Shown here piece by piece: positions 236 to 9,159 of a DNA stretch of 44,374 nucleotides (positions are counted from its first letter, which is position 1; the number at the start of each line of letters is the position of its first letter). Source of the DNA: an uncultured Variovorax sp. GTDB lineage: Bacteria; Pseudomonadota; Gammaproteobacteria; Burkholderiales; Burkholderiaceae_C. Location: assembly GCA_913776885.1 (NCBI GenBank), contig CAJYQC010000043.1:1-44374 (forward strand), given 5' to 3'. The translations under genes and the position numbers were made by a program. Under the pieces are notes generated by a model. The model made no database searches and was not told the DNA's origin. It saw nothing but the letters and a program-made list of their open reading frames with translations.

Positions 236-1180
236 CTAATCCGCGCAGCGCTGGATTTCCACCGTCGAGTGGCGGATCTCCTCGTGCATCGAGAAGCAGG
301 CCCGCACCTGGTCGGCGGTGAGTGTCCGCGAGTGAGTCACCACGGTGAGCGCGCAGGCGTAGGCGTCGCGGCCCACGCGCCACACGTGCAGGTCGGCCAC
401 GCGGGTTTCGGAATCGGCCAGCAGGGTCTCGACGCCTTCCTTGATCTCCGCAGTGACGGGGTGGTCCATCTCGCGGTCGAGCAGCACCTTGCCGGTCTCC
501 TTCAACAGCGCCTTGGCCCAGACCGCCACCAGCACCGCGCCGACGATGCCCATCGCCGGGTCGAGCCAGGCCCAGCCGTAGAACCAGCCGCCCAGCAGCG
601 CCGCGATGGCGAGCACCGAAGTGGCGGCGTCGGCCACGACGTGCAGGTAGGCCGAGCGCAGGTTCAGGTCGTGGCCGTGGTGATCGTGCGCATGGCCGTG
701 GCCGTGATCGTGCCCGTGATGGTGATGCGCCCCGCCCAGCAGCCGCGCACAGACCAGGTTGACCAGCAGCCCCAGCACCGCCACGGCGATGGCCTCGGGG
801 TAGTGGATGGCCGAGGGCGACCACAGCCGCTCCAGCGAGCCCACCACCATCAACGCCGCCACGCCCAGCAGCGCCAGCGCGCTCGCGAAGCCGCCGAGAA
901 CCTCGATCTTCCAGGTGCCGAAGGCGAAGCGCGGGTCGCGTGCATAGCGGCGCGCAGCAGCATAGGCGAAGGCGCTCAGGCCGATCGCCAGCGCGTGCGA
1001 GCTCATGTGCCAGCCGTCGGCCAAGAGCGCCATCGAGTTGAACCACCAGCCGGCGCCGATCTCGACGACCATCATCGCGAAGGTGATCCACATCACCAGG
1101 CGCGTGCTGCGCTCGGCGGAGGAGGTGTCGGCGCCGAAATGGTGGTCATGCTGCCAGGCGCTCAGGTCATGGGTGTGCAT
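236..1180 (-). CDS. dmeF: Cation diffusion facilitator DmeF, Co(II)/Ni(II) efflux
   Basis: A 314-residue inner-membrane antiporter of the CDF family, expected to export Co2+/Ni2+ from the cytoplasm. The N-terminus begins MHTHDLSAWQHDHHF, the His-rich start typical of DmeF. The metal site in TM2 is H58-x3-H62 (WHMSSHA) rather than the H-x3-D or D-x3-D of zinc and iron CDFs, and TM5 carries HVVAD (H-x3-D). A cytosolic loop at about residues 148-171 is almost entirely His, Asp and Gly. A C-terminal cytoplasmic domain follows (VADLHVWRVG). The start lies 5 bp downstream of the ruvB stop, so the two are probably cotranscribed; no separate promoter or DmeR-type repressor gene is visible. The family call is firm; Co/Ni specificity is inferred from the family. 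Confidence 0.9.
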   Translation of the reverse strand: MHTHDLSAWQHDHHFGADTSSAERSTRLVMWITFAMMVVEIGAGWWFNSMALLADGWHMSSHALAIGLSAFAYAAARRYARDPRFAFGTWKIEVLGGFASALALLGVAALMVVGSLERLWSPSAIHYPEAIAVAVLGLLVNLVCARLLGGAHHHHGHDHGHGHAHDHHGHDLNLRSAYLHVVADAATSVLAIAALLGGWFYGWAWLDPAMGIVGAVLVAVWAKALLKETGKVLLDREMDHPVTAEIKEGVETLLADSETRVADLHVWRVGRDAYACALTVVTHSRTLTADQVRACFSMHEEIRHSTVEIQRCAD

Positions 1181-1185
1181 GGGAA

Positions 1186-2250
1186 TCAGGCTCCAAAGAG
1201 ATCGGGTCCGTCGTTGCGGCCGGAAGGGGGCGCTACGCCGAGATGGCGGTACGCCGCCAGCGTGGCGATGCGCCCGCGCGGCGTGCGCTGCAGGTAGCCC
1301 TGCTGGATGAGGTAGGGCTCGATCACGTCCTCGATGGTGTCTCGCTCCTCGCCGATGCTGGCGGCCACGTTGTCCAGCCCGACAGGCCCGCCATCGAAGC
1401 GGTGGATGACAGCCTCCAGCAGCTTGCGGTCCATCAGGTCGAAGCCCTGCGGATCGACGTCGAGCATGGCCAGCGCACGGTGCGCGATGTCTTCGGTGAT
1501 GCGGCCGTTGCCCTTGACCTCGGCGTAGTCGCGCACGCGGCGCAGCAGGCGGTTGGCGATGCGGGGCGTGCCGCGCGAGCGGCGGGCGATCTCGAAGCCG
1601 CCGGCCGCATCGGCCTCCACCTTGAGCAGCCCGGCGCTGCGGTGCACGATCAGCGCGAGCTCCTCGGGCGTGTAGAACTCCAGCCGCGCGACGATGCCGA
1701 AGCGGTCGCGCAGCGGGTTGGTCAGCATCCCGGCGCGGGTGGTGGCGCCCACCAGCGTGAAGGGCTGCAGGTCGAGCTTGATGCTGCGCGCCGCGGGGCC
1801 CTCGCCGATCATGATGTCGATCTGGTAGTCCTCCAGCGCCGGATACAGGATTTCCTCGACGACCGGGCTCAGCCGGTGGATCTCGTCGATGAAGAGCACG
1901 TCGTTCGGCTCCAGGTTGGTCAGCAGCGCCGCCAGATCCTTGGGTTTTTCGAGCACGGGGCCGGAGGTCTGGCGCAGATTGACGCCCAGCTCGGCCGCGA
2001 TGATGTGCGACAGCGTGGTCTTGCCCAGGCCCGGCGGGCCGAAGAGCAGCACGTGGTCGAGGGCTTCCTGACGCTTGCGCGCGGCGCCGATGAAGATCTC
2101 GAGCTGCTCGCGCACCTTGGCCTGGCCGACGTACTCGTCGAGCAGCTTGGGGCGCAGGGCCCGTTCGATCGCCTCCTCGTTGGGCGAGGCCGGGGCCGCG
2201 GACACCACGCGTTGGGGGGCGGGCGCGAAGTCGTCTGTCTGGATGGTCAT
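1186..2250 (-). CDS. ruvB: Holliday junction branch migration ATPase RuvB
   Basis: RuvB is the AAA+ hexameric motor that, with RuvA, drives branch migration of Holliday junctions. The 354-residue length is normal. Visible are the RuvB N-terminal signature ([20 protein letters not shown]), Walker A GPPGLGKT at about 69-76, Walker B FIDEIHRL at about 115-122, sensor region [18 protein letters not shown], and the C-terminal winged helix ([14 protein letters not shown]). The frame is open far upstream, but the ATG at 2250 begins [10 protein letters not shown] as in related RuvB proteins and is preferred. Unusually, ruvA is not adjacent: it lies on the same strand at 19369-19941, with about 17 kb of other genes between. 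Confidence 0.97.
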
Positions 2251-2418: not shown

Positions 2419-3045
2419 GTGTCGATCTACGAACTGAAGCCGCGTTTCCAGGCCCTGCTGCGGCCGCTGGTGGTCCGCCTGCATGCGATGGGCGTCACCG
2501 CCAACCAGGTCACGCTGGCGGCATGCGCGGTATCGGTGGCACTCGGACTCTGGCTCTTCTTCGCGGCGCCCTCGCCGGCGGCCTTCGGCCTCATCCCGCT
2601 GTGGATGTTCCTGCGCATGGCCTTCAACGCCATCGACGGCATGCTGGCACGCGAGCACAACCAGCAGAGCAAGCTGGGCGCCTTCCTCAACGAACTGACC
2701 GACGTGGTCTCCGACGCGGCGCTGTACCTGCCCTTCGCGCTGGTGCCGCCTTTCAGTGGCTTCTGGGTCGGCACCGTCATCGTGCTGTCCGGGCTGAGCG
2801 AATTCGCCGGCGCGCTGGGCCCCACGGTCGGCGCCTCGCGCCGCTACGACGGCCCGCTGGGCAAGAGCGACCGGGCCTTCGTGTTCGGCGCGCTCGGCCT
2901 GTACGTGGCGCTGGGCTGGCCGCTGCCGGGCTGGACGGCCTGGCTGATGCCGCTGCTGGCCGCGCTCGTGGCCTGGACCACCATCAACCGCATCCGCCGG
3001 GCACTGGCGGAGGCAGACGACAAGAATTCAACAGGGACTCAATGA
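2419..3045 (+). CDS. ynbA: YnbA-type CDP-alcohol phosphatidyltransferase
   Basis: A 208-residue integral inner-membrane protein of the CDP-alcohol phosphatidyltransferase superfamily, which joins a CDP-linked lipid to an alcohol head group. The superfamily motif DxxDGxxAR-x8-GxxxDxxxD is recognisable but altered: N70-xx-D73-G74-xx-A77-R78-x8-G87-xxx-N91-xxx-D95, so the first and third aspartates are asparagines. From memory the E. coli YnbA family shows the same change, so this is a subfamily trait rather than damage. Start is GTG at 2419, behind GAGGGGA. The stop overlaps the next ATG by 4 bp (ATGA), showing translational coupling to the ynbC homologue. The alcohol acceptor cannot be told from sequence. 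Confidence 0.85.
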
Positions 3046-4808
3046 CAACCACGACTCCTCGCATCGCCGAAGAAATCCACTTCCAGACGCACGACGGCGA
3101 ATCGCTCTTCTACCGCCGCTGGCCCGCCACCGGTGCCGCGCGGCGCGGCGCCGTGCTGCTGTTCCACCGCGGCCACGAGCACGGGGCGCGCATGGCGCAC
3201 CTGGTCGACGAGCTCGACCTGCCCGACTTCGACTTCTACGCCTGGGACGCCCGCGGCCACGGCCGCTCGCCGGGCCAGCGCGGCTACAGCCCCAGCTTCG
3301 GCACCTCGGTGCGCGACGTGCAGACCTTCGTGCAGCACATCGGCGCGGTGCACGGCGTGCCCGAGCACGACATCCACGTGGTCGCGCAGAGCGTGGGCGC
3401 GGTGCTGATCGCCACCTGGGCGCACGACTACGCACCCAAGGTGCGCGGCCTCACGCTCGCCTCGCCGGCCTTCAAGGTCAAGCTCTACGTGCCCTTCGCG
3501 CGGCCGGGCCTGGCGCTGATGCACAAGCTGCGCGGGCTCTTCTTCGTCAACAGCTACGTGAAGGCGAAGTTCCTCACGCACGACCCGGAGCGCATTGCCA
3601 GCTACGAGAGCGATCCGCTCATCAGCCGGCCGATCGCGGTCAACATCCTGCTGGGGCTGTACGAAGCGGCCGAGCGCGTGGTGGCCGACGCCAACGCGAT
3701 CACGCTGCCGGTGCAGCTGCTCATCTCCGGCGCCGACTGGGTGGTGCACCACAAGCCGCAGCACCAGTTCTTCGAGCGGCTCGGCAGCGTGGTCAAGACC
3801 AAGGTCGAGCTGCCGGGCTTCTTCCACGACACGCTGGGCGAGAAAGACCGCGCGCCGGCAGTGGCGCAGATCCGCGAATTCATCCTGCAGCGATTCGACG
3901 AGCCCGCCGTGCCGGTCGACCGCCGCGACGCGCACCTCAGCGGCGAGACGGCCGAGGAGTCGCGCGCGCTGGCCGAGCCGCTTTCGCCCCTGTCGCCGCG
4001 CGGCGCCTACTGGGCCATCACCCGCGCCGGGCTGAAGCTGGGCGGCACGATGTCCGAAGGCATCAAGCTGGGCCACGAGACCGGCTTCGACTCCGGCAGC
4101 ACGCTCGACTACGTCTACCGCAACCATCCGCAGGGCAGCTCGTTCATAGGCCGCTCCATCGACAAGACCTACCTGGAGTCGATCGGCTGGCGCGGCATCC
4201 GCCAGCGCAAGATCCACGTCGAGGAGCTGCTGCGCATCGCGATGGAGCGGCTGGCCGAGATGCACCGCGAGGTGCGCGTGATGGACATCGCCGCCGGCCA
4301 CGGCCGCTACGTGCTCGACGCGGTGCTGGCGAGCCCCGTCAAGGCGAGCTCGATCCTGCTGCGCGACTACAGCGACATCAACGTGCGCGACGGCCGTGCG
4401 CTCATCGCCGAGAAGGGCCTGGAAGACATCGCCCAGTTCGTGCAGGCCGACGCCTTCGACCGCATGAGCCTGGCCAGCGTGACGCCGCGGCCCACGCTGG
4501 CCGTGGTGTCGGGCCTCTACGAGCTCTTTCCCGACAACGAGATGGTGCGCCGCTCGCTCGCGGGCGTGGGCGACGCGGTGGAAGACCGCGGCTACCTCGT
4601 CTACACCGGGCAGCCCTGGCATCCGCAGCTGGAGATGATCGCGCGCGCCCTCACCAGCCACCGCCAGGGCGAGGCCTGGGTGATGCGCCGCCGCACCCAG
4701 TACGAGATGGACCAGCTGGTGGAGGAAGCGGGCTTCCGCAAGATCGACCAGCGGGTGGACGAGTGGGGCATCTTCACGGTGTCGCTGGCTGTGCGTACGG
4801 AGCGGTGA
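3042..4808 (+). CDS. ynbC: YnbC-like fused alpha/beta hydrolase and SAM-dependent methyltransferase
   Basis: A 588-residue, probably cytosolic or membrane-peripheral two-domain enzyme. Residues about 10-290 form an alpha/beta hydrolase of the monoacylglycerol lipase (serine aminopeptidase) type: LLFHRGHEHG oxyanion region, YAWDARGHGRSPGQRG, nucleophile S117 in VAQSVGAV, late acid in ISGADWVVH and His in GFFHDTLGE. A linker follows, then a class I methyltransferase at about 390-588 with SAM motif I MDIAAGHGRY (D415). Length and domain order match E. coli YnbC (about 585 aa). The ATG overlaps the ynbA stop, so the longer open frame upstream is not used. A role in hydrolysing or methylating a lipid made by the neighbours is an inference from context. 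Confidence 0.85.
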   Translation: MTTTTPRIAEEIHFQTHDGESLFYRRWPATGAARRGAVLLFHRGHEHGARMAHLVDELDLPDFDFYAWDARGHGRSPGQRGYSPSFGTSVRDVQTFVQHIGAVHGVPEHDIHVVAQSVGAVLIATWAHDYAPKVRGLTLASPAFKVKLYVPFARPGLALMHKLRGLFFVNSYVKAKFLTHDPERIASYESDPLISRPIAVNILLGLYEAAERVVADANAITLPVQLLISGADWVVHHKPQHQFFERLGSVVKTKVELPGFFHDTLGEKDRAPAVAQIREFILQRFDEPAVPVDRRDAHLSGETAEESRALAEPLSPLSPRGAYWAITRAGLKLGGTMSEGIKLGHETGFDSGSTLDYVYRNHPQGSSFIGRSIDKTYLESIGWRGIRQRKIHVEELLRIAMERLAEMHREVRVMDIAAGHGRYVLDAVLASPVKASSILLRDYSDINVRDGRALIAEKGLEDIAQFVQADAFDRMSLASVTPRPTLAVVSGLYELFPDNEMVRRSLAGVGDAVEDRGYLVYTGQPWHPQLEMIARALTSHRQGEAWVMRRRTQYEMDQLVEEAGFRKIDQRVDEWGIFTVSLAVRTER

Positions 4809-4814
4809 TGAATC

Positions 4815-4975
4815 CGGGAGCGGGCAGCCGGACGCAGAGGACGCGAAGGTTGCGCAGAGGGCGCGAAAGGGAATACCGAAAGGATTTCTTTCTTCTTCTG
4901 CGGCCTCTGCGTGGTTCTTGTGTTCGTTCTGCTTTCGGGTGTGCGGTGCTCTCACTGAAGAGCGCGGGGGTTTCG
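4815..4975 (+). repeat. Dispersed GACGCAGAGGACGCGAAGG-type repeat inside the operon
   Basis: The gap between the ynbC and ynbD homologues holds GGGCAGCCGGACGCAGAGGA followed by CGCAGAG/GCGCGAAAG words on the left and the partly complementary TGCGGCCTCTGCG on the right, a loose inverted repeat. The left arm closely resembles the element at 41569-41719 (GGGCAACCGAACGCAGAAGG). I know this word set as a dispersed intergenic repeat of Comamonadaceae. It interrupts what would otherwise be a tightly packed operon and may form a transcribed stem. Confidence 0.6.
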
Positions 4976-4977
4976 GC

Positions 4978-6321
4978 ATGAGCTCCGGCCGCCGCCCCTG
5001 GAAGCGTGCTGCTGCGTGGCTGGTGCTGCTGGGACCGCTGTTCTATGCGACCTACGGCTTCGCCAACTGGTGGGCGACCACGCGCGCCGAGGTACCGTCG
5101 ATGGCCTTCGATTGGGAGCGGCATGTGCCGTTCTGGCCCTGGACGATCTTCCCGTACTGGACGATCAACGCCTTCTACGCGCTGTCGCTGTTCCTCGCGC
5201 GCAGCAGGCACGCGCTCGACCGGCATGCGCTGCGGCTGCTGACGGCCACGCTGGTGGCCTGCACCTGCTTCGTGCTGTGGCCGCTGCACTTCAGCTTCGG
5301 GCAGCCGCCGGTCGACGGCGCGCCGGCCTTCTTGTTCAACGCGCTGCGCGGCTTCGACCAGCCCTTCAACCAGGCGCCCTCGCTGCACATCGCGCTGGCG
5401 GTGATCCTGTGGGACTGGTACCGGCAGTTCATCCGGCCGCTGTGGGCACGGCTGGTGCTGCATGCGTGGGCCTTCGCCATCTGCGCCTCGGTGCTCACGA
5501 CCTGGCAGCACCATTTCATCGACATTCCGACCGGCGCGCTGCTGGGCCTGTTCTGCGTGTGGCTGTGGCCGCTGGAGCGCGTGGTGTCGATGCCGCGCGC
5601 ATGGCGCACCACGCGCGACCCGCAGCGCTGGAAGCTGGCGGGCTTCTACGCGGTGGGTGCCGCGCTGTTCCTGGCGGCGGCGCTCTACGGTGGCGGCATC
5701 GCGCTGTGGCTCGCATGGCCGGCCGCCGCGCTGGCGCTGGTGGCGCTGAACTACGCAGGCTTCGGCGCGCGCGGCTTCCAGATGGATGGCCGCGGGCGCA
5801 TGGGCTGGGCGGCGCGCTGGATGTTCGCGCCCTACCGGCTCGGCGCCGCCGTCAATGCCTGGCTCTGGACACGCAGCCTGCCGGCCTCGGTCGAAGTGGT
5901 GCCGGGCCTGCGGCTGGGCCGGCGACCCACGCATGCCGAATGGCTGGCGGCCGGCCGACCCCGGCTGGTGAGCCTGTGCGCCGAACTGCAGATGCCCGCA
6001 GGCGTGCCGCACGCGCGCTGCGTGCCGATCCTCGACCTGACGGTGCCGCCCGCGGTGCGCCTGCAGCGCGCGGCGGCGGTCATCGAAGGCCAGCGCCGCC
6101 ACGCCGACGGCGCGCCGGTGTGGGTCTGCTGCGCGCTCGGCTTCTCGCGCAGCGCGGCGGCGGTGATCGCGTGGCTGGGCCGCTACGGCGCGGCCGGTGG
6201 CGTCGCCCAGGCCGAACAGGCAGTGCGCCGGGCACGGCCGCAGATCGTGCTGCGGGATGCGTGGCGGGCCGCCCTGGAGCAGTTCGAACCCTTGCCGGAG
6301 GTGCCGCGCCATGACCGATGA
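4978..6321 (+). CDS. ynbD: YnbD-like PAP2 phosphatase fused to a dual-specificity phosphatase
   Basis: A 447-residue inner-membrane protein. The N-terminal half (about 1-290) has several hydrophobic helices and a PAP2-type core: QAPSLHIAL (P134-S135-L136-H137, in place of PSGH) and HHFID (H178-x3-D182). The C-terminal part (about 300-440) is a cysteine phosphatase of the dual-specificity type, with active site C385-x5-R391 in VCCALGFSRSAAAVIAWL. E. coli YnbD has the same architecture as I recall it. The enzyme could remove phosphate from a lipid phosphate made by the neighbours, as PgpP/PTPMT1-like or PAP2 enzymes do; the substrate is unknown. Start ATG 4978 gives a normal N-terminus with a first TM at about 10-30; the stop overlaps the next gene by 11 bp. 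Confidence 0.82.
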   Translation: MSSGRRPWKRAAAWLVLLGPLFYATYGFANWWATTRAEVPSMAFDWERHVPFWPWTIFPYWTINAFYALSLFLARSRHALDRHALRLLTATLVACTCFVLWPLHFSFGQPPVDGAPAFLFNALRGFDQPFNQAPSLHIALAVILWDWYRQFIRPLWARLVLHAWAFAICASVLTTWQHHFIDIPTGALLGLFCVWLWPLERVVSMPRAWRTTRDPQRWKLAGFYAVGAALFLAAALYGGGIALWLAWPAAALALVALNYAGFGARGFQMDGRGRMGWAARWMFAPYRLGAAVNAWLWTRSLPASVEVVPGLRLGRRPTHAEWLAAGRPRLVSLCAELQMPAGVPHARCVPILDLTVPPAVRLQRAAAVIEGQRRHADGAPVWVCCALGFSRSAAAVIAWLGRYGAAGGVAQAEQAVRRARPQIVLRDAWRAALEQFEPLPEVPRHDR

Positions 6322-6766
6322 CAACGACCGGGCCACCTGCGCCGCGCTCGCGGCGCTGCTGCGCGCCATGGCGCTGCCGGCCGTCTGGGGCTTCGCGCTC
6401 ACCTGCATCTCGGCGCTGGTGCTCGCGCTGACGCTGCGCTCGCTCTCGACCACCGCCACCATGGCCTTCGGCGCGGTCGTCATCCTCGGCGCGCTGGAGC
6501 GCTACTTCGCGTTCCGCCTGCGTTTCGACGAGGCGCTGTTCGACGGCCTCGCGCGCAACACCGTCGCCTCGCTCGACGCGCTCGACCGCGCGCTCTCGTC
6601 CCTCGGGCTGCGCGAGCCGCCGCCTTCGCAGCCTTCACTGCACACGCCCCGCCCGCTCGACGACCGCGTGCAGGGCACCCGCCAGCTCATGCAGCGCCAC
6701 GCCATCGTGGTGGCCTGCCAGAGCGCGATGTTCCTCCTTGCCTTGATGACACAGGACTTGTCATGA
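6311..6766 (+). CDS. Small membrane protein of the ynb-like operon, unknown function
   Basis: A 151-residue protein I do not recognise. It starts at ATG 6311 inside the end of the ynbD homologue (11-bp overlap in another frame). Hydrophobic stretches lie at about residues 20-40 (PAVWGFALTCISALVLALTL), 46-62 and 130-147, so two or three membrane helices are likely; between them is a soluble segment of about 60 residues with a Pro-rich patch (REPPPSQPSLHTPRP). It has no known catalytic motif. Tight coupling to ynbD suggests an accessory membrane subunit of the lipid pathway. Its codon and base use resemble its neighbours. Confidence 0.75.
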   Translation: MTDDNDRATCAALAALLRAMALPAVWGFALTCISALVLALTLRSLSTTATMAFGAVVILGALERYFAFRLRFDEALFDGLARNTVASLDALDRALSSLGLREPPPSQPSLHTPRPLDDRVQGTRQLMQRHAIVVACQSAMFLLALMTQDLS

Positions 6767-6862
6767 CTCTCCCCCAGGCTTGCCCACTGCGCGTGGCCTG
6801 CTCCCCTCTCGCCGGGGTCCGCTCCAGCGGCCCGTCGAAGCCGGCTTCGCGGTGCGCACCGA
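6767..6862 (+). repeat. Dispersed intergenic repeat (CACTGCGCGTGG type) inside the operon
   Basis: Immediately after the stop at 6764-6766 comes CTCTCCCCCAGGCTTGCCCA followed by CTGCGCGTGGCC, then a C-rich stem and AAGCCGGCTTCGCGGTG. The same order of words (CCCCC..GCTTGC.CACT.CGTG..GCC ... GGCGGCCCG..AAGCCGG.T.CGCGGTG) is found at 19944-20045, in front of phoH. It pushes the acyltransferase start about 125 bp from the preceding gene, in an operon otherwise joined by overlaps. Confidence 0.65.
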
Positions 6863-6890
6863 ACAAGCCGTTCACACCGGAGGCGACACC

Positions 6891-7610
6891 TTGAGCGACG
6901 GCACGGACAAGCCCGAAACCACCGTGCTGCGGCGCGGCCTCGCCATCGTGGCGGGCAAGCTCATCATCGGCGCGGCCGGGCTGCTGACCGGCGTGCGTGC
7001 CATCTGGTCGGGCTCCACGCCCAAGGCCGAGCAGACGCTGTACTTCGCCAATCACACGAGCCACGGCGACTTCGTGCTGCTGTGGGCCACGCTGCCGCCC
7101 GACCTGCGCGCGCTGACGCGGCCGGTGGCCGGACAGGACTACTGGATGGCCTCGAAGCTGCGGCAGTTCATCGGCATCGACGTGTTCAACGCGCTGATGA
7201 TCCGCCGCGACGGCTCGGGCCAGGGCGAGAACCCGGTCGAGCAGATGAAGCAGGCGCTGGACGCCGGCGACTCGCTCATCATGTTCCCGGAAGGCACGCG
7301 CAACACCGGCGACGAGATCCTGCTGCCGCTCAAGAGCGGCCTCTTCCATCTGGCGCGCGCCTGCCCCAACGTGCGGCTGGTGCCCGTATGGATCGAGAAC
7401 CTCAAGCGCGTGCTGCCCAAGGGCACGCTGGTGCCGATCCCGCTGGCCTGCACGGTGCGCTTCGGCGCGCCGATCTCGCTGGCCGAGGGCGAGGACAAGA
7501 ACAGCTTCATCGCCCGGGCCCGCACGGCGATGCTGGACCTGCGGCCCGAGTACGACCGCATCGAGGAGAACGGACAAGCCGGCCAGAACAACACGGGGGC
7601 ATCGGCATGA
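6891..7610 (+). CDS. PlsC-type 1-acyl-glycerol-3-phosphate acyltransferase family protein
   Basis: A 239-residue membrane-associated acyltransferase of the PlsC superfamily, which transfers an acyl chain to lysophosphatidic acid or a similar acceptor. Motif I is NHTSHGDF (H55-x4-D60), motif III is FPEGTR (132-137), and a conserved LVPVWIEN segment follows. A hydrophobic N-terminal helix (GLAIVAGKLIIGAAGLLTG) would anchor it. The start chosen is TTG at 6891, because GGAGG (6879-6883) lies 7 nt upstream and the upstream ATG at 6780 would place the N-terminus inside the dispersed repeat. Its stop overlaps the next ATG by 4 bp. In this operon it could supply phosphatidic acid for the CdsA-like enzyme encoded next; that is inference. 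Confidence 0.85.
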   Translation: MSDGTDKPETTVLRRGLAIVAGKLIIGAAGLLTGVRAIWSGSTPKAEQTLYFANHTSHGDFVLLWATLPPDLRALTRPVAGQDYWMASKLRQFIGIDVFNALMIRRDGSGQGENPVEQMKQALDAGDSLIMFPEGTRNTGDEILLPLKSGLFHLARACPNVRLVPVWIENLKRVLPKGTLVPIPLACTVRFGAPISLAEGEDKNSFIARARTAMLDLRPEYDRIEENGQAGQNNTGASA

Positions 7611-8563
7611 TCGAACTCTCTCCCTTCGCCTGGACCACGCTCAAGCTCTTCGGCGGCGTGGCCGGCGTGCTGGTGCTTGCATCGGCCATCGGCGCGCTGC
7701 TCAAGTGGAAGGTGGCGCACGGCCAGCCGCACTCGGTGATCGACAACCTCAACTCGCGCGTGAACGCCTGGTGGGTGATGGTGGCGGTGATCGGCATCGC
7801 CTTCGCCTTCGGCAAGGGCGGCGTGATCATCCTGTTCTACCTGATCTCGTTCTACGCGCTGCGCGAGTTCATCAGCCTCGCCTACACGCGCCGCGGCGAC
7901 CATGCGCCCATCGCGCTGGCCTTCTATCTCGCGCTGCCGGGGCAGTACTTCCTCATCTGGATCGACTGGTACGGGCTCTACGCCATCTACATCCCGGTGT
8001 ATGCCTTCCTGCTGCTGCCGATCCTGGCGGCGGTGGGGGGCGACACGCGGCGCTTCCTGGAACGCACCTCGAAGATCCAGTGGGGCCTGATGGTGTGCGT
8101 GTTCTGCATCAGCCATGTGCCCGCGCTGCTCACGCTGCAGATCCCGGGCTTCGAGGGCCGCAATCTGCTGCTGATCGCCTTCCTGGTGATCGTGGTGCAG
8201 GGCAGCGACGTGCTGCAGTACGTGTGGGGCAAGCTCTTCGGCAAGCGCAAGGTGGCGCCCGAGCTCTCGCCCTCCAAGACCTGGGAAGGCCTGGTCGGCG
8301 GCGTCGCGAGCGCCACCGCGCTCGGTGCCGCGCTCTACTGGGCCACGCCCTTCAACCCATGGCAGGCGGCGCTGATGTCGCTGACCATCTGCCTCATGGG
8401 CTTCTTCGGCGGGCTGGTGATGTCGGCCATCAAGCGTGACCGCGGCGTGAAGGACTGGGGTTCGATGATCGAGGGCCATGGCGGCATGCTCGACCGGCTC
8501 GATTCGGTGATCTTCGCGGCGCCGATCTACTTCCACGCGCTGCGCTACTGGTGGGTGCCTTGA
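7607..8563 (+). CDS. ynbB: YnbB-like CDP-diacylglycerol synthase (phosphatidate cytidylyltransferase)
   Basis: A 318-residue polytopic inner-membrane enzyme of the CdsA family, which makes CDP-diacylglycerol from CTP and phosphatidic acid. The family signature S-x-x-K-R-x4-K-D ... H-G-G-x-x-D-R-x-D is complete: S273, K276-R277, K282-D283, H291-G292-G293, D296-R297, D299. A second conserved element KVAPELSPSKTWEG lies at about 219-232. ATG 7607 overlaps the stop of the acyltransferase gene. It is not the housekeeping cdsA, which in proteobacteria normally lies in the frr-uppS-dxr-bamA region. Together with the YnbA homologue it gives a private CDP-lipid branch. Confidence 0.88.
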   Translation: MIELSPFAWTTLKLFGGVAGVLVLASAIGALLKWKVAHGQPHSVIDNLNSRVNAWWVMVAVIGIAFAFGKGGVIILFYLISFYALREFISLAYTRRGDHAPIALAFYLALPGQYFLIWIDWYGLYAIYIPVYAFLLLPILAAVGGDTRRFLERTSKIQWGLMVCVFCISHVPALLTLQIPGFEGRNLLLIAFLVIVVQGSDVLQYVWGKLFGKRKVAPELSPSKTWEGLVGGVASATALGAALYWATPFNPWQAALMSLTICLMGFFGGLVMSAIKRDRGVKDWGSMIEGHGGMLDRLDSVIFAAPIYFHALRYWWVP

Positions 8564-9159
8564 GCAAGGCGCAAGCGCAGGAGCGCGTCGTGCACGAGGC
8601 ACCCCTCGAGTGCGCCGACGCTGCTGCATGGGCACGCTGGCTCGAGCGCCACCACGCGAGCGCCGCCGGCGTGTGGCTTCGCATCGCAAAGAAAGACAGC
8701 GGCATCGCCTCCGTCGACTATCCCGCCGCGGTGCAGGAAGCCCTGTGCTGGGGCTGGATCGACGGCCAGCGCAAGAGCCAGGACGAGCAATATTTCCAGC
8801 AGCGCTTTACGCCGCGCACCAGGCGCAGCATCTGGTCGCAGGTCAACCGCGACAAGGTGACGAAGCTCATCGACGAAGGCCGCATGCAGCCGGCCGGCCA
8901 TGCCGAGATCGAACGCGCGAAGGCCGACGGCCGCTGGGACGCGGCCTACGAGGGGGTCGCCAAGGCCACCGTGCCGCCCGACCTGCAGGCCGCGCTCGAT
9001 GCCGACAGGAAGGCCGCGAAGTTCTTCGCCACGCTCGATTCGCGCAACCGCTTCGCCGTGCTGTTCCGCACCCAGGGCGCGAAGAAGCCCGAGACCCGTG
9101 CGCGCCGCATCTCACAGTTCGTGGAGATGCTGGCCAGGGGCGAGAAGATCTACCCCTGA
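8551..9159 (+). CDS. YdeI/OmpD-associated family protein
   Basis: A 202-residue soluble protein of the YdeI/OmdA family (bacteriocin-protection, YdeI or OmpD-associated). The typical N-terminal motif WLERHHASAAGVWLRIAKKDSG and ALCWGWIDGQRKSQDEQYFQQRFTPR is present, with the C-terminal LDSRNRFAVLFR...KKPETRARRISQFVEMLARGEKIYP. The start is GTG 8551, which overlaps the end of the CdsA-like gene by 13 bp; TTG 8560 is an alternative. No enzymatic activity is established for the family. Overlap suggests cotranscription with the lipid operon, but a functional link is not evident. The gene converges on the Crp/Fnr-type regulator; a weak CTGAG/CTCAG hairpin lies in the 20-bp gap. Confidence 0.85.
   Translation: MGALSKAQAQERVVHEAPLECADAAAWARWLERHHASAAGVWLRIAKKDSGIASVDYPAAVQEALCWGWIDGQRKSQDEQYFQQRFTPRTRRSIWSQVNRDKVTKLIDEGRMQPAGHAEIERAKADGRWDAAYEGVAKATVPPDLQAALDADRKAAKFFATLDSRNRFAVLFRTQGAKKPETRARRISQFVEMLARGEKIYP

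Follow-up and report, generated by a model that had tools for sequence, protein, structure and literature searches.

The closest described relative of the six-gene operon analysed here is the ynbABCD operon of Escherichia coli K-12 (b1408-b1411), in which the genes follow the order A-B-C-D. The six-gene operon lies at positions 2419-8563 of a 44,374-nucleotide contig from an uncultured Variovorax sp. (GenBank assembly GCA_913776885.1, contig CAJYQC010000043.1), and this whole stretch of DNA is referred to as the window. Published data on the E. coli operon, cited here like all other literature from excerpts of the respective papers, concern YnbB, which makes CDP-diacylglycerol (CDP-DAG) in vitro, raises the amount of MPIase when overproduced and restores MPIase, but not phospholipid (PMC7018664, PMC6362211). 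According to PMC6362211, where the data are not shown, YnbB is unable to replace CdsA for bulk phospholipid. A transposon screen linked ynbB to enterobacterial common antigen, while the authors found that ynbB is not needed for the antigen (PMC8609368). A literature search, which covered few subscription journals, returned no functional work on ynbABCD apart from ynbB, and the excerpts of PMC6362211 and PMC7018664 connect none of the other operon genes with MPIase. The experimental support for a pathway is confined to B. An earlier reading of the window made from the letters alone (the sequence-only reading) had stated that the E. coli operon has no settled function, a statement that these data on YnbB qualify.

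In the window, all six genes are located on the plus strand in the order A-C-D-S-P-B, as the sequence-only reading had described and as the open reading frames (ORFs) and Pfam matches bear out; the start codons were picked by us from the sequence. Gene A (2419-3045, GTG start) encodes a YnbA-type CDP-alcohol phosphotransferase homologue of 208 amino acids and overlaps the start of C (3042-4808), which encodes a YnbC homologue of 588 amino acids with a monoacylglycerol-lipase-type hydrolase fused to a Methyltransf_20 domain. The YnbD homologue D (4978-6321, 447 amino acids) comprises a probable PAP2_3-type membrane domain and a probable dual-specificity phosphatase domain with a C-X5-R motif, and its gene overlaps that of S (6311-6766), a small membrane protein of 151 amino acids without known family. 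The last pair, which also overlaps, consists of P (6891-7610, TTG start), a PlsC-like acyltransferase of 239 amino acids, and B (7607-8563), a YnbB-type CdsA paralogue of 318 amino acids with a CdsA-type C-terminal stretch. The likeness to the four E. coli proteins was confirmed by BLASTP against K-12 (NC_000913), with identities of 49% for A and YnbA over 199 columns, 58% for C and YnbC over 582 columns, 38% for D and YnbD over 441 columns and 39% for B and YnbB over 298 columns. The four homologues lie close together in the window and are one-to-one best matches, and YnbD, like D of the window, joins both putative phosphatase domains in one protein. In contrast to the window, however, P and S are missing from ynbABCD and the gene order differs. 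Altogether, the observation of the sequence-only reading is confirmed, and its interpretation is partly supported and extended.

The gene order was scored by stop codon position in 107 loci, comprising E. coli, the best 80 of 564 related stretches obtained by searching named bacterial genomes with C as query, and 26 loci from an even draw of 398 Pseudomonadota genomes across the phylum, among which Methyltransf_20 was present in 27, the own genome of the window included. These loci are not independent: most of the named ones belong to the Comamonadaceae, L033 and L034 share the strain name E41, and L019 and L122 probably represent the same genome. The order A-C-D-S-P-B was found in 94 of the 107 loci and in 21 of the 26 even-draw loci, and full-order loci include, judged by record titles, Herbaspirillum, Azoarcus, Zoogloea, Pseudomonas, Lysobacteraceae and Reyranella. 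Since the order recurs in 94 loci, the gene set is not a result of chance. Within 8 kb of C, P was present in 99 and S in 97 of the 107 loci. The acyltransferase and the small membrane protein, whose conservation beside ynb genes had been the critical point of the earlier interpretation, are therefore kept there far outside the genus.

Among the 13 loci without the full order, five (L008, L041, L049, L054, L061) have a D that runs to the end of the sequence, hiding S-P-B. The others comprise E. coli with A-B-C-D, L139 with A-C, L140 with A-C-P-B, L133 and L134, in which A is turned round with no B or P close by, L076 with B-P-C-D and no match to A, L082 without a match to S, and L138, in which B and P are turned round. 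The genome of L134 (G043) carries not only this A-C-D-S operon, but also a separate A of the second clade described below together with P and B (L151). Outside the six genes, no convincing recurring neighbours were found among the 40 largest clusters of neighbouring ORFs, which were judged by eye and several of which looked antisense to real genes.

A profile of A, run over the same 398 genomes, gave 37 genomes at 172 bits or more, followed by a gap down to 67 bits. A was present in all 27 genomes with C. Of the ten A genomes without C, eight (L141-L148) contain A beside B and P, while the region examined gave no match to C, D or S, and L141 showed a second, weak P match (29 bits). The remaining two are L149, which has only fragments of A and B, and L150, which has a lone altered A that has lost N1 of the motif discussed below. 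L149 looks like a decaying copy with short A and B fragments in a genome of 1.9 Mb. Of the 37 A genomes, 35 hold a B match of at least 300 bits, whereas G110 has a fragment and G287 no B at all, and each of these 35 genomes has a further, lower-scoring CdsA-type match elsewhere. Since the genomes with B hold a further CdsA-type match, and the own genome contains three other CDP-alcohol phosphotransferases and three other PF01553 acyltransferases, the operon genes are extra copies. A second clade comprises 11 A relatives scoring 52-68 bits, the weakest matches opened. B and P lie near A in ten of its loci, while L155 has A alone; in L160, A runs in the opposite direction to B and P, and L154 also shows a C-like hydrolase match of 80 bits.

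A tree was calculated from 71 A sequences, i.e. those of 27 C-linked loci, 8 A-B-P loci, the 11 genes of the second clade and 25 canonical sequences, with the ynbA loci L180 and L186-L188 as well as L004 left out. Here, the C-linked and the A-B-P-only A genes were interleaved, and L141 was placed beside L086 and L119, both of which are full operons. The plain reading of this interleaving is that C, D and S were lost or gained, together or in part (L139, L140), around a lasting core, which is mostly A-B-P. In a relative of the genus, a second YnbB-type match of 309 bits (G379:C14:126011-126967) is present besides the operon's own. In one A-B-P operon, P is followed by a VTT-domain-like gene (L146:858-1397, minus strand), a possible lipid scramblase with 29 bits against a cut-off of 33.9, and L144 contains a gene resembling it, which has no Pfam match.

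Class I CDP-alcohol phosphotransferases carry the motif DxxDGxxAR(x8)GxxxDxxxD, in which the aspartates D1-D4 bind two metals that hold CDP-DAG (PMC6506517, PMC8633023). In MjPSS, the exchange of any motif aspartate for serine or asparagine reduced or abolished the activity, and after exchange of D3 for asparagine more magnesium restored it not at all or negligibly (PMC8633023). A shares with the members of this class (PgsA, PssA, phosphatidylinositol-phosphate (PIP) synthase) the domain PF01066 (CDP-OH_P_transf, 42 bits compared to a cut-off of 22), D2, the glycine and D4, and AR is kept in the ynbA clade. In contrast to these enzymes, it has asparagine in the places of D1 and D3 and a glutamate (in some members an aspartate) at position 92, the motif in the window being N70..D73 G74..A77 R78 ... 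G87...N91 E92..D95. The two asparagines, which do not match the class I motif, were found in 106 of 107 A rows (the window, E. coli and 105 loci, which is not the same set as the 107 loci scored for gene order), and the single exception is L008, where A is split between two ORFs. E. coli YnbA, the 11 genes of the second clade and the 8 A-B-P loci show the same N-D-N-D pattern; in the second clade (support 0.992), AR is additionally changed to A[IVM]E. A supposed internal stop in A of L109 was rejected, the TAG in question being the regular stop codon of A.

As a control, PF01066 loci from ten genomes were considered. Of the 45 matches 31 were read, resulting in 25 with D-D-D-D, 5 ynbA genes with N-D-N-D and 1 (L179) outside the motif expression. 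In the tree, the 46 N-D-N-D sequences clustered together and were separated from the 25 canonical sequences with a support of 0.997. The motif expression used for control and tree fixes D2, G, A, G and D4, and for the tree only D or N were admitted at D1 and D3, with N-D-N-D preferred among several; the asparagine calls in the 107-row alignment and the reading of the second clade are independent of the N choice of this expression. All 46 sequences of the N-D-N-D group comprise an acid at position 92 (44 glutamate, 2 aspartate), compared to none of the 25 canonical ones. Likewise, glutamate at position 79 was found in 46 of 46 compared to 0 of 25, and aspartate at position 99 in 46 of 46, with one glutamate among the 25 canonical sequences. 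Since PIP synthase aligned to A also has acids in the places of 79 and 99, only position 92 and the two asparagines look special. The strict conservation argues for a function of A, which would not necessarily be ordinary transfer.

C matched Hydrolase_4 with 231.5 bits and Methyltransf_20 with 502.3 bits, and S117, D232, H262 and D415 were identical in 108 of 108 rows. C is a fusion of both domains in which the triad (S117, D232, H262) and the S-adenosylmethionine (SAM) site motif are kept, the positions of triad and SAM site having been assigned by us from alignments. The hydrolase matched monoacylglycerol lipase in a PDB profile search (7e-23), and an AlphaFold2 model of C (mean pLDDT, the predicted local distance difference test, of 85.8) gave monoglyceride lipases as best PDB matches (Foldseek, 1.5e-17), whereas the match to lysophospholipase L2 was weak (31.6 bits, far below the cut-off of 362). 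For the substrate of the methyltransferase half, the structure gave only weak matches (9sls, E 0.0015) with entry names that hold no substrate, and the list of fold matches was filled by the lipase half. In PADLOC, a single weak match (mad2, E 0.0012) was obtained with the methyltransferase half of C, the other five proteins remaining without a match, and a defence system was rejected on this basis.

For the whole protein D, the Pfam families PAP2, PAP2_3 and DSPc each lay just under the cut-off, while the N-terminal half alone matched PAP2_3 with 28.8 bits (cut-off 27). Its motifs are PSLH ... TTxQHHxxD in the membrane half and C-X5-R in the phosphatase half; PSLH, HHxxD and CX5R are kept in every covering row save one exchange of L for M, and the CX5R residues were invariant in 26 of 26 and 100 of 100 covering rows, five further rows being cut. 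The model of D (mean pLDDT 90.8) matched protein-tyrosine and dual-specificity phosphatases best in the PDB, and the nearest solved relatives of the phosphatase half include Tk-PTP from an archaeon and, at a lower rank, PTPMT1 (4.8e-10). D probably joins a CX5R domain of the Tk-PTP/PTPMT1 kind and a PAP2_3-type half. S showed hydropathic segments that fit a small membrane protein, and in a family alignment of 31 members D73, D92 and R119 were invariant and R69 nearly so; it had no match in Pfam, NCBIfam or PADLOC, and its PDB matches did not go below E 0.38. PlsC-type acyltransferases are characterised by the motifs H-X4-D and FPEGTR. P (PF01553, 68 bits) contains NHTSHGD and FPEGTRN, and NH.SHGD and FPEGTRN are conserved in its family alignment. 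B (PF01148 CTP_transf_1, 239.5 bits) comprises the C-terminal stretch SAIKRD...KD...GHGG..DR.D, which we take to be the CdsA signature and which is largely conserved in the family.

The six-gene set had been regarded in the sequence-only reading as a more complete version of ynbABCD. This is supported by the plasmid NZ_CP053574 of Citrobacter sp. TSA-1, which contains A-B-P-C-D followed by a 136-amino-acid gene in the place of S. Although the S profile (E 0.01) missed this gene, its alignment with S reached an hhalign probability of 70% (E 4e-5). Based on this plasmid, E. coli ynbABCD is most simply explained as a reduced form of a wider gene set. An E. coli IncK2/Z plasmid carries A-B-P-C and the start of D. 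In L147, the neighbours of A-B-P share 89% and 92% identity with azoR and hrpA of E. coli, the two genes that flank ynbABCD in K-12. Of 5426 complete E. coli genomes, 4242 contain one place that spans 80% or more of ynbABCD and 4579 show a match of any extent; in 1184 genomes, no single place reaches 80%. In one E. coli genome of this kind, which was inspected, a truncated pdxI is joined directly to the end of ynbD, and the rest of ynbABCD is gone.

Outside the proteobacteria, a plasmid of the cyanobacterium Pseudanabaena contains A-B-P and, of C, only the methyltransferase half. A Fusobacterium record of 2.1 Mb (L194, NZ_CP084075) is labelled as plasmid and, judged from its size, looks like a chromosome. 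On a Moraxella osloensis plasmid (L195), one frame holds A together with the start of C, and the remainder of C is in a different frame. Next come genes for a patatin-like phospholipase and an SDR protein and, on the opposite strand, B. The idea that the patatin replaces the hydrolase of C in this plasmid was rejected, the start of C being present in another frame.

It is proposed, with our confidence about evenly divided, that the operon represents a dedicated second phospholipid pathway of P, B and A, which runs parallel to PlsC-CdsA-PgsA/PssA and is tailored by the removable genes C, D and S. What was observed is the identity, order and conservation of the genes, the altered site of A and the catalytic residues that C, D, P and B have kept; the order of the reactions, the acceptor and the product are inferred. 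P would acylate a lysophosphatidate-type acceptor to a phosphatidate-type lipid, which B would charge with CTP to a CDP-lipid, and A with its remodelled N-D-N-D site would consume the CDP-lipid and attach a head group. The product might then be methylated by the methyltransferase half of C and trimmed at an acyl chain by the lipase half, while D would remove a phosphate via its PAP2_3 and dual-specificity domains and S could serve as a small membrane partner. With the CdsA/MPIase pathway of E. coli the operon shares B, a CdsA paralogue whose counterpart YnbB makes CDP-DAG in vitro and restores MPIase (PMC7018664). Beyond that pathway, it encodes an acyltransferase and an unusual CDP-alcohol phosphotransferase as well as a lipase-methyltransferase and a putative double phosphatase. 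A dedicated lipid pathway, considered possible in the sequence-only reading, is in keeping with the enzyme families. Its transfer step is unsafe to assume, because CDP-alcohol phosphotransferases are defined and driven by four aspartates, of which A lacks two, and since C, D and S can be missing while A-B-P stays, the set is not one fixed pathway. A more far-reaching version, offered tentatively and with clear doubt, is that the A-B-P unit makes an unrecognised class of bacterial phospholipid via a rebuilt two-metal site (two aspartates changed to asparagine and one new acid), perhaps taking a phosphorylated (anionic) acceptor to an MPIase-type pyrophosphate-linked lipid. The unit, which is also found in Cyanobacteriota and, without P, in Fusobacteriota, would then carry C, D and S as a removable cassette.

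Several findings weigh against the proposed second pathway. The changes at D1 and D3 of A are ones that cut or abolished activity in MjPSS (PMC8633023), and for this reason A might be inactive as a transferase. Nor is the core present everywhere: in L139, L133 and L134, where A and C occur, B was found on separate contigs only, L150 and L155 carry A alone, and the Fusobacterium vincentii record L194 reads C-A-B without P in the 12.6 kb read. The operon is dispensable in E. coli, as shown by the counts above and by the opened genome with only a fragment, and deletion of ynbB was without visible effect on growth or MPIase level (PMC6362211). If A is not a transferase, it could be a CDP-lipid-binding partner or regulator of B. 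In this case B itself would transfer the lipid onto a sugar phosphate, in line with proposals for CdsA and YnbB in MPIase formation, and C and D would act on the resulting glycolipid. Both the asparagines in the place of two catalytic aspartates in nearly all A members and the restoration of MPIase, but not phospholipid, by YnbB (PMC7018664, PMC6362211) fit this explanation. However, A keeps D2, D4 and the neighbouring residues and has gained the acid at position 92, both of which point to a catalytic role that was retained. Furthermore, MPIase is reported to be essential, yet C was found in 27 and A in 37 of the 398 proteobacteria, and CdsA suffices in E. coli. We regard this explanation as rather unlikely.

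Still less probable is a role of the operon in recycling or repairing existing phospholipid, in which P, B and A would rebuild what is degraded by the phosphatases of D and the lipase half of C. While the hydrolase of C is closest to monoacylglycerol lipases with a weak likeness to lysophospholipase L2, and P is a PlsC-type acyltransferase, A-B-P stays without C, D and S in 8 of the 10 loci lacking C, and the Pseudanabaena plasmid keeps the methyltransferase half where the hydrolase half is missing. That the genes are backup copies of central phospholipid synthesis without a special product would agree with the further copies of every core family in the own genome and with the dispensability of the operon. 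This is nevertheless quite improbable, since A forms a separate clade with an altered site, and the operon adds methyltransferase, lipase and phosphatase domains, which are no part of central phospholipid synthesis. The reported inability of YnbB to replace CdsA (PMC6362211) also contradicts a backup function. Least of all is a phosphatidylinositol pathway expected, in which A would join the CDP-lipid to inositol phosphate and D would remove the phosphate. Although the nearest solved relatives of A are PIP synthases (9e-10), archaetidylinositol-phosphate synthase scores highest among its NCBIfam matches (73 bits, compared to a cut-off of 180) and the phosphatase domain of D matches PTPMT1, A does not comprise the D-D-D-D motif of those synthases. 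Inositol-1-phosphate synthase (PF01658) was found in only 4 of the 37 A genomes and not in the own genome, the assembly of which is 89% complete (5.48 Mb), and an inositol lipid is thus disfavoured as the general case.

The only gaps within the operon of the window lie between C and D and between S and P, and both are filled by dispersed intergenic repeats. The C-D gap (4809-4977, 169 bases) has 39 matching places in the own genome, and the S-P gap (6767-6890, 124 bases) contains a second repeat with at least 45, the own copy being counted in both cases; the latter number is a lower bound, with 40 of 179 candidates scored. The best matches of the window C among the named genomes were Variovorax with 97-99% identity. 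Directly after B follows a YdeI/OmpD-associated (OmdA) gene (8551-9159), homologues of which (BLASTP, 1e-3) were found in 26 of the loci compared, every one of them titled Variovorax. Upstream, ruvB and a cation efflux gene (236-2250, minus strand) are oriented divergently from the operon.

While the kind of system, a phospholipid-type operon like ynb, is known, a literature search that covered few subscription journals returned no description of the six-gene form, of the A-B-P core or of the N-D-N-D clade. The same search returned no papers on PF12147 or on three or more of the six Pseudomonas aeruginosa genes PA2536-PA2541. The wider gene set explains E. coli ynbABCD as a shortened form and names P and S as its missing partners. 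Moreover, it sets a lasting A-B-P core apart from optional tailoring genes and places YnbA in a clade with an altered catalytic site. The question is thereby sharpened to which head group and which acceptor are used, and in what way a homologue of the CDP-alcohol phosphotransferases can function when two of the four aspartates are replaced. Should the pathway make a new lipid, this lipid would be missing from the standard picture of proteobacterial membranes.

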